Positions 20,543 to 31,213 of a stretch of 64,000 nt of DNA are shown here, piece by piece. Source of the stretch: Ceraceosorus guamensis (Eukaryota; Basidiomycota; Exobasidiomycetes; Ceraceosorales; Ceraceosoraceae). The notes beneath the pieces are model-generated. The model did not search any database, had not been told where the DNA came from, and worked only from the letters and a program-made list of their open reading frames with translations. Positions within the stretch are counted from its first letter, which is position 1. The number at the start of each line of letters is the position of its first letter. The translations under genes were made by a program, and so were the position numbers. The stretch spans positions 124,001 through 188,000 of the forward strand of contig NW_020290028.1 in NCBI RefSeq assembly GCF_003144195.1. Reading direction: 5' to 3'.

Positions 20543-23500
20543 TCACGCGATAGGCTGACGACAACTAGGACAATTCTTGACCGATCTGAGCAGCTGCAAA
20601 GCGCAGCTCTCGTGGAAGATGTGCAAACAAGGGAAAATGCAAGCTTCTTGAAGCGGCCTGAATTGGTTCAAGCAGATCGTGCACTTGTCCACCCTCACAC
20701 CGGCCACTCCCAACTTTTGCTTGATCTTGCCTTCCTTTGTCGTCCTGCGACTCAGAAGCTCCACCCGAGCCACTGCCAAGTTGGACATTTCTTCGACCGT
20801 AGCGCGAGTCTCTTTGCCCGGTCCCAAAAAATCTGCTAAAGTAGCAAGCTCATCATAGTGATCTCCTGCCTGTTCTAGGCGCGAAGCCAGAAAATCTAAA
20901 TCGGTAAAGCCGATAGACGCTTGTCTCGTGGGGCGCTGCAGCGCATCTGCCACCTCAGCAGTTGGCACTGCTTCACTTTCGGAAGCAGAAGATCCTCCTG
21001 ATGGCAGAGCAGGAGAGTTCCTTGCATCACCGTTTGCTGTTCCGCTCCCTGTCTGAGCTTCGAAGACATCATGCGCTGTGCTCGCTGCAGGTCTCTTCGG
21101 GCCATGTGACGGAGCGTCTTGCTGGGAAGGCGAGCTGGTCCCCACCGGAATGGTAGGAGGATTTGGCAGAGGACGTCGGGCGGTGAAGGAGCCAAAAAGA
21201 GGTTCACGCCTGGGCTCGAATGAGCGCACGTCATCCGAAACAAAGGTTTCAACAGCTGACGCATCTGTTGAACTGGGCGCATGTGCATTCTGGCTTGAGG
21301 TGACAGGGCTTTTGTCAGAGCTTTGTGGCTCGGCCATGCGTGACGCTCGAGTGGCTCGACTTCGAGACAAAGCGCCCGGTGGAGGAGGAGGCGGTGGCCG
21401 CCTGCGAAGTACGCTCATGCGCCTGTCCAAGCTTTGTGTATCGACGGATTCCTTGGACGCCAGGGCGGCACCACTTGCTTCATTGCGAGATGGATTGCGC
21501 TCTGGAACCTGGACTGGTCCATCGTCTACCAACTGCACCGGGCTACGAGATTGCGAAGGTGCGGCACTCTCAAATCGCGAGATGAGCGTAGATACGCGTC
21601 CTCCATTGTTGCTCATGGCACGATCAGGCGAGAGCGGTTCTTGCAGCGCGTCTTGCTCTTCCTGAGGGATGTAAGCCAGCCAAGATGGAGTGCCGCCTGG
21701 TCTTGGAGGCGCACCATTGCTCGACCATGAATGCTTTTCCGGAGCGTAATGCCTCGTCTCTGCCGTTATGGTGGGCAGGCGGCCGAGCGGTCTGGGTGCA
21801 CCGCTCGAACGTGGATTGACAAAGCTAGTGGGTCGCAGCCCAGCGTGAGTGGGAGCTGAGAGGTTTAGCGCTGAGGCGGGAGTCGCTGTCGCACCACGAA
21901 CGAGCAACGCCTCCAGAGCGGTGAGAGAGTCGTTGTTGGAGCCATTGGTGGTCGTTCTTAGGCGGGTCAGCTGGGCAAGGGCCTGTGCTCGGGCTTTGTC
22001 GGGATCGGTAGAGGATACAGGCGGTCGCGGAAGCGCCTTTGGTCCGCTTTGTCTAGGCTTGACGGGCTCGGTCAGGGGCTGTCGGAACAAAGACCGACCG
22101 TCCCTACCAGATCGAACACTCGCCTCGTCTTGCATCGGCTCTGGCGGACTGCGTTCAGTGAAGCTGTCTGTCACCTCACCAGCTCTGCCATCGTGTAATG
22201 GGGTGACGAAGAGACCCTTGAGGCGAGAGCTTACAGCAGGTCGGAGCGTGCCTTGCGTGTCAACAGCATTGTGTGCCATTCGCGGTGCTGCCGAAGCTCT
22301 TAGCGTCGCGTTTGCGTCTTCCAAAGATTCGTCCGAGAAGCTGCCGCTGCTGCCATCGTCCTCTTCGAACGTGCCAGCAGCAGTAGCCATGGAGGAAAGG
22401 GGTGGCGCATCATGCCCACGACTCGGAGGCAAAGAGTCCGGTGATTGTGCTGGTAGCCACCTTTCGGGTCGCATCGGAGTCTTGCCCTTGTCTACGCGGC
22501 CGGGAGACAATGTGCGCAAGACGCTATCGGCAATTTTGTCGTCCTCGACGGGATCTTCTACGAAATGAGCGCGGCGACTGCTTTGCGTGGATGTGCTCGT
22601 AACGGACGAAGCACGAGACAAGGAAATATTCGCAGGATCTACTCTACTCTGCCTTTCGGCGCCGTTCACCAGTCTAAATTCGAGTGGGTGCCGTTGTCGA
22701 GTTGGATTAGCGGCGGTAATTCCATCTTCTTCGCTCGAAGAATCGTCTGGACGGCCCATTTCATCGCTAGACGACTCGCTGCTCGAAGAATAGGCAGCGC
22801 CTCCTCGAGACCGTCCAAGAACAAGCGGAGGTGGTGCTCGCGGCACAGGACCAGAAAGATCAGTATAGTTGAGAGAGTCAGAGCGAAGTCGAGCAAATCT
22901 TCCTGGCACTTTGAGTTCCTCATCCGTATCGCTATCTGCTACTGCCGAAGGTGGAGCTCCTGCTCTTTGTAGCGCTTCTATCGCGCGTTTGTCTGCTTGC
23001 CAGTCCTCCTCCGAATCATCTGATTCAGAGAGAGATGTAGCACGCTCGATTTTATGTTGCGCTAAGGCGTACAGGGCGGCATTGTCTTCGCCAGGCGCGA
23101 CGTTACTGGACACAGAGGAGATACGACCAGGAGCTTTGACGAGCTCGACAGGTTGTGCCGAGGCAGCGGCCCACAAAGCACCACGGCGCTGCGCTGCGGC
23201 AGTCGCATCATCCCTGAATCTTGTGTGACTCTCACTCGCAGGCCGTGACCTCAGTCGAGTCGCCTTGCCTCTTGCCATTGACCTGGTAGTGGCAGTCTTC
23301 TTGGGCAGCTCTTCGTTTCGAGAAAGAGGAGATGAGACAGCTCCATTCGCTCTGCTGTCGGATACGACTCTACGATGTGACGCGCGCCTCGAAAGCCCTT
23401 GTGCGCCCTGAGCGGCTAGCGTCCTGCTGCTGAAGGAAGTCGAAGCGGCCTGCTCGACCGCGTCGACTGGAGCTGGTGCGCTTACCGACGTCCTAAGACC

Positions 23501-25125
23501 GCTGCCTGGGGTTGTACTTTGCAGTCGGAGTGCCTCTGCAGGCTTCGACCCTCCCGCTGGCTGCGTAGGGCGAGGTGCGGATGCTGAGTGTGCTTGGCTG
23601 GACGCAGCCGAGGATTCTGAAGCTCTATCAGAGCCTGTTGCATGAGCGCGCTCGCCACTTCCGTTCGCTGGTGGTGTGACAGTCGACAGGCGGGGGCTTT
23701 GGGCCTCTGTTAGTTGCGTCCACGAGTCTGCATTTCCTCCTACTTCTTGCAACAAGGTGTTCTGGTGTCGCCGGTTCCGAGCCTCTAAGACCAACGCCCC
23801 CAGATCGACGGAATTCACGGCGCTTCGGTCTGTGTCGTCCGCTTGACCTTCCTTGTTCTCAACCGGTGTCGCCGCCGGCAGGGTGGAAACTCCATCAAGC
23901 GGCGCACGCTCGTCGAGCGCACTCTCATGCGGCGGTGCATGGGAGCTATCTGGCTGGGCGCCTTCAAGGAATCTACCATCCGCGAACGACTGGAGATGGC
24001 CTCTCCTCCGTGCTTCCCTTTCCATGCGCTCCTCGAAAGGTAGCCCCTCCTCGACGTCCCTCTCCCACGCGCTCAAGAGTCTTGGTGCCTTATCGCCCGC
24101 TTCGCTCTCAGATCCAGAGCTGCTCTCTTCGCTTCGAAATTCGGGAGGCGGGGAGTTTGGTATTCGAGGCTGACTTGGTGGTCCGGGCGCCTGAGGTGGA
24201 GCCTCACCAGCAGGATAAATAGGAGGCAAGTCCAATTCGCCGAGGTCATCCACAAGAATGTCGTCGGCGCCTGGTACCTGGCCGAGAAAAGAGGCGCTAT
24301 AAATGTCTGTGCGTTGCCGTGCTGTGCTGAAGTCGGCGATCTCGGCCAAAGCAGCGGCATCTGCTGCCGCATATGCCGCCGCTGTGCTGTCGGGTGCTCG
24401 AGTCGTGTCGTCTGCTGGATGGCCACCTGAGGGGCGTGTAGATGGACTGCTCGTGGTGTGAGCAGGTAGCGATCGAGTGCTTGAGCGAGAAGTGGGGCGA
24501 GGAGTGCCAAGCTGAGTGAAGCTGGCCGAGCTTGGCGGCCGAACGTCTTCCAGAGCAGGCCTTCTCCTTCTACCATCTGACCTGTGCGTAGCGCTATGAC
24601 CATTGCGGTCGGAATTTGGACCCTCTGAAACGGAGCCTCGCCTCTCTTCTCCGCTTATTCGAGCGCTAGCACTCGCACTACTAAGTGTCGCAGACGCGAC
24701 ACTTTGGCCCAGTGAAACTCCAGCCAAAGCGCTGGCAGCAGCATTAGCAGCTGCTGCTTTCTTCTTCTTCACTTTGGCACGCTTATCCCGAGCTTCTTGT
24801 CGCTTGCGTCTCATGTTGTCTGGTGCTGTTAAGGCGACTCGTCTATCGTTGACATCGATATTGGGCTCCGAGCTCGACCCTGCGACCGCTCCACCGGACG
24901 TGGGAGCGGGGAGGGTCGCTACCAAGGATGAGGATGACGCATGATGCTGCAAAGTGTAGAGTTGATTTCTGGACGAGACTGTCCGCATGCCTGCGGAGGG
25001 GGGCCGCAGTCCGGCTGCTCATTGGCAAGAGGGAGATGTGGTCAGCGTGATCAAGTACGTGCAGCGTTATGCGCTTCCACAGACTCACGCCCGGTGCCTA
25101 TCGCCTCGCCTCGTCTTGGCGGCAT
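20543..25125 (-). CDS. Large disordered protein with C-terminal RING finger (probable E3 ligase)
   Basis: A single long exon (24990-20543), preceded by a probable 37-nt first exon (25125-25089, MPPRRGEAIGTG), gives about 1494 residues. If that exon is not used, translation could start at 24988. Most of the protein is Ser/Pro/Ala/Arg-rich and looks disordered, with a polyproline run (RRRPPPPPPPGAL). The last 45 residues form a RING finger: CTICLNQF, then FPCLHIFHESC and CPSCRQPI, the C3H2C3-type ligand pattern. A conserved-looking helical segment (FTDLDFLASRLEQAGDHYDE) lies just before it. RING fingers of this type recruit E2 ubiquitin-conjugating enzymes, so E3 ligase activity is inferred. 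I cannot name an orthologue. Confidence 0.82.
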
Positions 25126-28671: not shown

Positions 28672-31213
28672 CTATCGAGCGGGCTCGACGTCAAACAATA
28701 CGCTGTGCGACGATGCGTCGGCATGATGGAAGGGGAAAAAAGAACGAAGTGAGTATTCTGCTTTGCAAGGCTGAGCACGAGATAAAGTTGTCCTCGAAGG
28801 TGGGCTCTGATCACAGAGCTTGAGCGGGAGACGCGCTTGCATTCGCCTCGGCCCCGGCTCGTCTGGTCTAGTCTGGTCTCACTCACACTTCCGCATCCTT
28901 TGCTACCAAATTCCTCACAAAAAGTTCCTGTCCGCTCCTTGCGCCTCTAATAAAGACGCCATCTCCCTCTTCGAGCCTGACCTCTTGCTCTTCATCCCGC
29001 TGCTGGTCGTACGAGCCCAAAGCGATCTGTACGGTAGCTTGAGAAGAAGCGCCCTCCTCAGCATCCAACGCAGCTCCTCCCCAAACCATGACAAAGTCTT
29101 TTCCAAAAGGCTCGGGCGCGAGCGTTTGTAGAGGCAGTGCTGTCGCGCACCTCGTCTTTCCCTTTCGACTAAGAGGTTTCATAGGGGACAATACCCTGCT
29201 CAACCAAGCAGGTGCGTCGTACGACACTCCTTTGCCTAGCCGGGTGCGCGAAATGGTCACGATGATCGTATCTATCAAACCTTCGACATCTCCCAAAGCT
29301 CGCGTCGATGCGGAATCGGAGCTGCGCGCATCGCTCGTCGTCTCTTCGTGCGCCGCTAACAGACTACTGATCACATCCGCCCCTCCTTCCACCATCAGAT
29401 GTTCCACACCCGCGTCTTTCAATCCCGATAAGACCTGCACCCAATCCAACTTGCCATCTCTCGTTCCTACTTCCAAAACATCAGCTCCTGCGCTCTGCAA
29501 CGCTTCTTTGCGCGCTGCTCCTTCATCATTCGGTGCCGAGGAAGTTGCGACGGAGCTCGTCACTATCAAGGGCTTCGCACCTGTGCCCGCACTGTAGTTG
29601 GTCAGAATCTTGCGGTCTAGCGGAGTGCGAAGGTGCGTGTCGAGGATGATAGGTCGAGGCAGATCCTGGACGGAGATGGTCTGATCTGTTTGCAAGGGCG
29701 AGAGGAGGCGAGCTACACGTCCCGATGCGCCATTCTCGAAGCGTCAGGAAAGGTGTCTGACTTGTGCTTGCGAAACTACCAACAAGCTTTCCTCACCATT
29801 GAGTTGAGGATTGTCATTGATAAGCGTACCTACGCCTACAAGGATTCCATCATGCATCGTCCTCAAGCTGCAAAGCCAGCAGGAGGAGAGAGCGAAGTCA
29901 GCAGAGATGACGCGCGGCGTATGCAAGCTCAAACATTTCGGACCCACGCGTGCGTCATGACGAAGCTTTCAGAACTACTCAGCGCGACCTGCTCCTTTCC
30001 CTCTCCGGCTATATATCCATCGATACTCTGAGCAAAAGTCAAAGTGACCCTTGGTCTCTTCGCTCGAGAGCTCAAAGCCTTTCGAGTTGGGCGGTAGGAT
30101 CGGTTGGAAGGGGCGGGATAGCTAGCCCACGAGGCAGTACGAGCATAGACACCTCGAAGGAACTGCGCCGCGTGCTCTAATCTCGTCTGGTGAGGTTGAT
30201 TGGGGACGACGTATTTCCTGATATGCTGAGCGTGCAAACGAGGTTCTTTCCAGCCCGACGTCATGGCCAGGTGAATGTAGATCCATCTTTCGCTCCCCGC
30301 CTTGCTTTCGGTCTGAGAACCGATGGCGTACTTTACCGAAGCGCCTGCGCTTAAAAGACTGACGGAGGTGGATAGACTGCAGTGAGCAGGGATGGCTCGA
30401 CCCGCTGGCAAGAGACCAATTTGTGATAGCTCTTGAGCGCTAAATGTGCATGCGGGCTTGATGAGCGTCAGGAAGCGATTGCGCTTTTCCACATCGTCGA
30501 TGTGAGGTGTAGAGTAGTACTTGGGCGTCAAGTTGCGCTCATCTGGCGTGTACCTTTGAAGCGAAGCAGAGCAAAGCATCCAAGTCGTCGCAGCAGGGTC
30601 AGTGCATGAACTGTGGAGATTGTGCAGAACACTCGACAGACGCACCAAATCTGCAAGAAGTGCACCTCTTCATTCGCATGGTCGTTGTACTCGCTGTGTC
30701 GAATGCCCGACCCAGCACTGGTGAACTGCACTTCTCCCCGCTTGAGCACCTCCACATTGCCCATAGAATCACGATGGGTCAGCTGCCCAGAGATGATGTA
30801 GGAGAACTTGTCGGATACACCGTAGGGATGAAAAGGTCAGCATCGCAAGGAGCACAAAGATGGGAAGCCAAGACGCGCTCGCGTGCCCGCAGCTCGCTCA
30901 CAATTTCTGCATTATTGTGAGCGTGGGTTGGAAATCCAGTCTTTGGCGCTACTCTGTCCTCATTGAGCACTCTGAGCGGTCCGAAATCTTCAAATCTGGC
31001 ATCGTAGTAGTTTGCAAAGCTGACAAGAGGAGGTGTTTGTCAGCGCGTCTGAACGTGGGAGCGTCTTGAAGAGCAAGTGTCGACTTACCTAAAGGTATGA
31101 AAAGTCTTCAACCAGCCGTGATCTGCTGAGCCCCTCTCATGCCATCTGCGAGGCTGCAATATCGACATCGGCCCGGAGGCCCTTTGGCTTTTGGCAGTGT
31201 TGCCGTTGGACAT
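28672..31213 (-). CDS. Pirin with in-frame embedded RIB7 (diaminopyrimidine-phosphate reductase) domain
   Basis: Seven exons in phase, 31213-31089, 31019-30902, 30806-30646, 30553-29948, 29867-29797, 29712-28887 and 28702-28672, predict about 645 residues. Residues 1 to about 240 are a YhhW-type pirin (cupin): HTFSFANYYDARF, GPLRVLNEDRVAP, GFPTHAHNNAEIFSYIISG, LTHRDSMGNVEVL and SAGSGIRHSEYN. Residues about 250-585 are a complete RIB7: VTLTFAQSIDGYIAG, HALRTMHDGILVGVGTLIND, RPIILDTHLRTP, HLMVEGGADVISSLL and TISRTRLGKG. RIB7 makes the ribitylamino-pyrimidine phosphate of riboflavin synthesis using NADPH. Residues 586-645 return to pirin: TVQIALGS, VRLEEGDGVFIRGARSG and VVLFDVEPAR, the last in its own exon. 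No in-frame Met precedes the RIB7 part after the pirin sequence. Alternatives are cryptic splicing or a separate RIB7 start in another frame. Confidence 0.85.

Follow-up and report, generated by a model that had tools for sequence, protein, structure and literature searches.

A RIB7 reductase apparently nested in frame within a pirin of Ceraceosorus guamensis and related fungi

We analyzed a 64,000-nucleotide stretch of the genome of Ceraceosorus guamensis, a smut-like fungus living on leaves (contig NW_020290028.1; hereafter the window), and found on its minus strand, at 28672..31213, a gene of seven exons whose predicted 645-aa product reads pirin, RIB7, pirin. Our preferred reading, to which we assign a probability of about 0.88 on the strength of the sequences, is that one gene gives one polypeptide with a complete RIB7 inserted in the second-cupin loop of a YhhW-type pirin and with both activities on the chain. 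The conserved architecture supports the domain-insertion fusion put forward in the original prediction: at least 12 other proteins repeat the order of the parts and the insertion point, six of them complete, and this identity of order and site excludes chance. As the nested arrangement is also found in related fungi, pirin–RIB7 gives the impression of a genuine double protein that has been maintained over a long time.

Gene model, domains, and junctions

Splicing the re-read minus strand from 31213 to 28672 joined the seven exons in frame into 645 codons and a stop, and the coordinates, exon number, and length of the original prediction proved exact. Exon 1 (31089..31213, on the minus strand like all features below) begins with Met1 at 31213 and contains an alternative Met16 at 31168, the start of the public C. 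guamensis model. The N cupin of the pirin is encoded by exon 2 (30902..31019), holding H74 and H76, and exon 3 (30646..30806), holding H118 and E120. Exon 4 (29948..30553) carries the second cupin up to SGWKEP (residues 234–239, ending at 30241), which closes the first pirin part, followed by linker 1 (30061..30240; residues 240–299), which contains the RIB7 N-terminal region (RLEHAAQFL), and the start of RIB7. Exon 5 (29797..29867) is RIB7 throughout, and exon 6 (28887..29712) holds the remaining RIB7 to its closing KDFVMVW (residues 565–571, ending at 29081), linker 2, and the pirin again from ATVQIALG (residue 586; 29038). The pirin finishes in exon 7 (28672..28702) with the C-terminal strand VLFDVEPAR and the stop.

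The six introns (69, 95, 92, 80, 84, and 184 nt) are all of the GT..AG type, and every one contains a CTNAC branch-like motif starting 24–51 nt from its 3′ end. For intron 5, the boundaries GTAGTT..GAG (658 aa) were dropped for GTGAGG..TAG (645 aa), which restores the LNAR reading found in 12/12 relatives. The public C. guamensis protein (P0122) corresponds to exons 1–4 from Met16, continuing into intron 4 (window 29929–31168; 327/327 residues identical), where it stops at a stop codon. It contains the start of RIB7 only, and the public annotation is without most of this riboflavin reductase.

A domain search agreed with the proposal of a YhhW-type pirin around RIB7. Pfam Pirin (PF02678, N-terminal cupin) matched residues 29–135 (E 5.6e-28) and RibD_C residues 302–481 (E 1.1e-26); a Pfam scan of the 645-aa protein returned Pirin, RibD_C, and Cupin_2 only, with no deaminase domain, unlike bacterial RibD. 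The best solved chains for the pirin part were 6uts and 1tq5 (YhhW), to which the N cupin aligned over residues 21–158 with the H, H, H, E pattern. The residues H74, H76, H118, and E120, which we take to be the pirin metal ligands, are retained in the fusion rows spanning them (11/11 rows for H74 and H76; 12/12 for H118 and E120). Of the 47 RIB7 positions at which 95% or more of 71 alignment rows agree, 12 of those rows being themselves fusions, 46 are kept; the exception is Pro to Arg at 516. Parts of the second cupin are present on both sides of the insert by alignment, while the Pfam model for this domain, PF17954, gave no match anywhere in the genome. Toward its C-terminus the pirin reads DAEVVLFDV, similar to the closing SEVLLFDL of YhhW 1tq5. 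The earlier identification of VVLFDVEPAR as the expected pirin end holds insofar as it aligns with separate pirins, but the profile piece of about 1 bit is by itself not significant.

Both junctions lie within exons, junction 1 after residue 239 (position ~30241) in exon 4 and junction 2 at residues 585/586 (position 29038) in exon 6, and the coding frame is open across both stretches. The non-coding frames are both stopped in the exon 4 stretch and one is stopped in the exon 6 stretch; the remaining one is open by chance. We confirmed that GTRAGT is absent from 30280–30140. Residues 226–300 contain nine GT dinucleotides, one of which fits GTRNG, at 30130 (GTGGGC). With GT/AG pairs counted regardless of quality, 42 are in phase; a single weak one couples GTRNG with YAG and could skip RIB7, through an intron of 1154 nt and at the cost of one pirin strand. 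The statement that neither a stop nor a Met lies between the pirin and RIB7 parts also stood: M232 (window position 30264) belongs to the pirin, a few residues ahead of junction 1, and the next Met is M334 inside the RIB7 core. At its natural ends, RIB7 in the window has neither a start nor a stop codon.

The genome (23.8 Mb in 199 contigs) was searched in six frames, exon by exon, an approach by which split genes or a second RIB7 could be missed. Within this search, the RibD_C profile and a separate RIB7 query each matched this locus only, and an Acaromyces pirin query likewise matched the window locus only (4/4), with no other YhhW-type pirin found. The second pirin of the genome, on another contig (C8), reads as a different subtype as judged by eye. 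On this reading and the Acaromyces query matches, we rejected the idea that the uninterrupted Acaromyces pirin is a paralogue also present here. Homologues of RIB1, RIB4, and RIB5 are present elsewhere in the genome. Outside the gene, the window contains on the minus strand (20543–25018) a 1491-aa open frame ending in a stretch of Cys and His that looks RING-finger-like by eye.

Fusion proteins in related fungi and their history

We searched ~5.8 billion proteins with the 645-aa query; 8000 candidates were scored and 120 of the 124 matches were listed. Among the matches listed, 12 further proteins have pirin, RIB7, and pirin at the same insertion point. Eleven of them (P0001–P0011) carry both domains by precomputed Pfam, and P0015 shows the same junctions in its sequence. 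P0006 is a protein of Exobasidium rhododendri; public databases list the Exobasidium fusion protein as hypothetical. Half of the 12 (P0001, P0002, P0003, P0006, P0007, and P0008) are complete from the pirin start to the C-terminal LFD motif. P0004, P0005, P0009, P0011, and P0015 terminate in AEL or AEV, at the point corresponding to the start of the last intron of the window gene, whose open frame likewise ends there in that intron; the proteins with source codes jgi, lgn, and ena presumably come from intron-naive gene calls. Part of the pirin N half is lacking in P0010, P0011, and P0015. The 12 represent fewer than 12 independent lines, P0007/P0008 and P0004/P0005/P0009 being near-copies. P0005, whose record names the fern Adiantum nelumboides as its source, is probably a contamination of the fern record by a leaf fungus. 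In searches for the fusion at the DNA level, viral contigs gave none, and genome contigs gave 88 matches, of which the best 80 all had bacterial titles and matched mainly in the RIB7 part.

An alignment with 16 separate pirins, picked from the listed matches, placed the insertion site at KDP / NEA, where the insert takes the place of a loop of ~8–10 residues in the separate smut pirins. Linker 1 is found in 13/13 fusion rows (the window protein and its 12 relatives) with a length of 46–62 aa, and aligns with separate RIB7s. Averaged over all pairs of the 13 rows, identity was 0.74 in pirin N (residues 30–237), 0.41 in linker 1 (238–299), 0.60 in the RIB7 core, and 0.54 in pirin C; between the window protein and the other rows, the corresponding values were 0.66, 0.26, 0.51, and 0.36. 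The higher conservation of pirin N than of the RIB7 core (0.74 vs. 0.60) indicates that the pirin is under a constraint of its own and is not a passive carrier.

In Ustilaginales and Tilletiaria, pirin and RIB7 are encoded separately, and Acaromyces ingoldii, which belongs to Exobasidiales like Exobasidium, has an uninterrupted pirin (P0242). PMC11687029 places Ceraceosorus next to Entylomatales. In a pirin tree of 13 fusions and 31 selected separate pirins, the fusions formed one side of a branch (support 76/90; 74% of 200 bootstrap trees), with Acaromyces and Parajaminaea as flagged long branches next to them. In a RIB7 tree of 40 rows selected by the same approach, 14 fusion rows, including the fragment P0121, formed a group (89/88) that also took in one RIB7-only ORF (P0147, 259 aa; placed among the fusions at 85/82). 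The 14 rows formed one group in just 16% of bootstrap trees, and a strict clade was not rejected (p-AU 0.315). Trees of the 13 rows only, in which P0015 spans 40% of the pirin columns, had six of 10 splits in common between pirin and RIB7. One conflict, P0005+P0009 in the pirin tree vs. P0004+P0005 in the RIB7 tree, was well supported, and the trio P0003/P0006/P0010 was resolved differently in the two; both cases concern close rows.

We read the trees of the two parts as largely agreeing, which would mean one old origin of the fusion and joint descent thereafter. Given the uninterrupted Acaromyces pirin and P0147, the fusion is, as far as these sequences tell, not universal in the group. A loss or release of RIB7 from the pirin is possible in Acaromyces ingoldii; for P0147 and P0242 together, a later release of RIB7 is possible and so are ORFs cut by introns. 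P0121 (339 aa) consists of RIB7 with pirin flanks altered or cut at both ends, perhaps a decaying or alternatively spliced fusion. A further observation concerns P0098, a 662-aa protein with source code ena that matches 7kyx (E 1.5e-32) and is on this basis a coronin, with RIB7 at residues ~230–478. Its RIB7 groups with Ustilaginales, and this single record may represent a second, independent insertion, into a beta-propeller, a nested gene, or a calling artefact; it is a hint of more than one RIB7 insertion.

Alternative readings and proposed function

Against a single protein one may hold that the public model P0122 ends in intron 4 and that the C-terminal pirin part of the window protein has diverged (0.36 to the other rows). 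The same model, which leaves the pirin halves unjoined, and the separate genes of Ustilaginales and Tilletiaria would also suit a nested gene, with RIB7 lying in a long pirin intron and transcribed apart and the frame through the junctions accidental. Both junctions are open in the window and in its 12 relatives, however, and an accident would not repeat; RIB7 lacks codons to start and end such a gene, and the sole GTRNG/YAG pair spans 1154 nt vs. introns of 69–184 nt here. We consider a nested gene very improbable. That assembly or gene calling joined two genes is barely credible: the assembly is a draft in 199 contigs, but the same joint appears at the same place in independent sequence sets, including the named Exobasidium genome, and an assembly join would not preserve frame and insertion point. 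The original prediction would have yielded to ordinary separate genes in related genomes combined with a local error of the assembly; the separate genes exist, but the 12 relatives contradict the error. A second product alongside the full protein, starting at M232, with RIB7 preceded by a short stretch of pirin and followed by the pirin C-terminus, strikes us as unlikely. The site is Met in 13/13 fusion rows and has G at –3, and among 21 separate pirins checked it is Gln in 17 and Met in two (pattern unmatched in two). The two with Met, Acaromyces and Parajaminaea, suggest that this Met is older than the fusion or unrelated to it, and the in-frame upstream ATGs (Met1, 16, and 96) would need to be bypassed.

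Under the single-protein reading, the product would most likely be bifunctional, with domains that fold and work separately. RIB7 would fold on its own within the pirin loop and, with NADPH, reduce DARP, the product of GTP cyclohydrolase II, for riboflavin; the pirin cupins would still be able to close around it. With the activities of pirin and RIB7 on one chain, their ratio would be fixed at 1:1 under a single promoter, and the likeliest benefit would be plain co-expression and gene linkage, which we place ahead of a redox link. Since RIB7 is needed, the pirin reading frame would not be easily lost. The two active sites may be directly coupled, and a tie between flavin synthesis and redox chemistry is thinkable, at most; the coupling to redox or quercetin-type chemistry suggested in the original prediction is neither borne out nor contradicted by the sequences. 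One form of coupling would be an allosteric switch, the iron centre of the pirin sensing oxidants and altering RIB7 activity through the loop, such that flavin synthesis tracks the redox state. Consistent with this, the metal ligands are retained in the fusion rows spanning them, Candida albicans lacking the pirin Prn1 had more ROS and lower H2O2 survival according to PMC11118716, and the RIB7 substrate DARP is described in PMC7138843 as a scavenger of nitric oxide or its derivatives. The long and variable linker 1 (46–62 aa; identity 0.41) argues against rigid coupling, however, and according to PMC7138843 the deletion of RIB7 in yeast left nitrosative tolerance unaltered; we find such a switch unlikely. 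For Prn1, PMC11118716 mentions riboflavin purely as the authors' speculation. A further scenario has RIB7 captured repeatedly, early into the pirin loop of Ceraceosorus and Exobasidium and independently into the coronin P0098, possibly freed again in P0147 and Acaromyces, with the iron cupin tuning the enzyme as an analogue of engineered domain-insertion switches; we give it little chance.

Comparison with known systems

The predicted protein is like the YhhW-type pirins or quercetin 2,3-dioxygenases (1tq5, 6uts) in the H, H, H, E of its N cupin and in its LFD-type C-terminus, the latter too short to count on its own; it differs in having an entire RIB7 enzyme set into the second cupin. It is like fungal RIB7, the 2,5-diamino-6-ribosylamino-4(3H)-pyrimidinone 5′-phosphate reductase (PDB 9l1f and 4ha7 by molecule name), in RibD_C and 46/47 positions; it differs in that RIB7 here is without its own start or end, inside another protein. 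Bacterial bifunctional RibD is an end-to-end fusion of RibD_C. Among our matches, P0115 is a protein of GTP_cyclohydro2 and RibD_C by its sequence, and P0117 and P0118 are so by their domain lists only. These fusions also join RibD_C to another domain in one chain, but in tandem and with riboflavin-pathway partners, whereas RIB7 here lies within an unrelated cupin protein.

Among the open-access papers listed for the fusion, no description of the pirin and RIB7 pair was seen; the kind is known, inserted domains being common. According to PMC13114784, domain insertion occurs in 20% of multidomain proteins, with a typical insert of 50–200 residues; its main text makes no mention of cupin, pirin, RibD, or dihydrofolate reductase. 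As in the natural domain-insertion proteins covered there, one domain interrupts another, and pirin sequence continues on both sides of RIB7 in one frame; the RIB7 insert, of ~345 residues, differs in exceeding the typical 50–200. The fusion would physically link a pirin to flavin synthesis. In at least two fungal orders (Ceraceosorales and Exobasidiales), a metal cupin thus carries in one of its loops an unrelated vitamin-pathway enzyme, apparently the sole copy in the genome studied here, and the fusion offers a natural test case for the tolerance and retention of a large insert.
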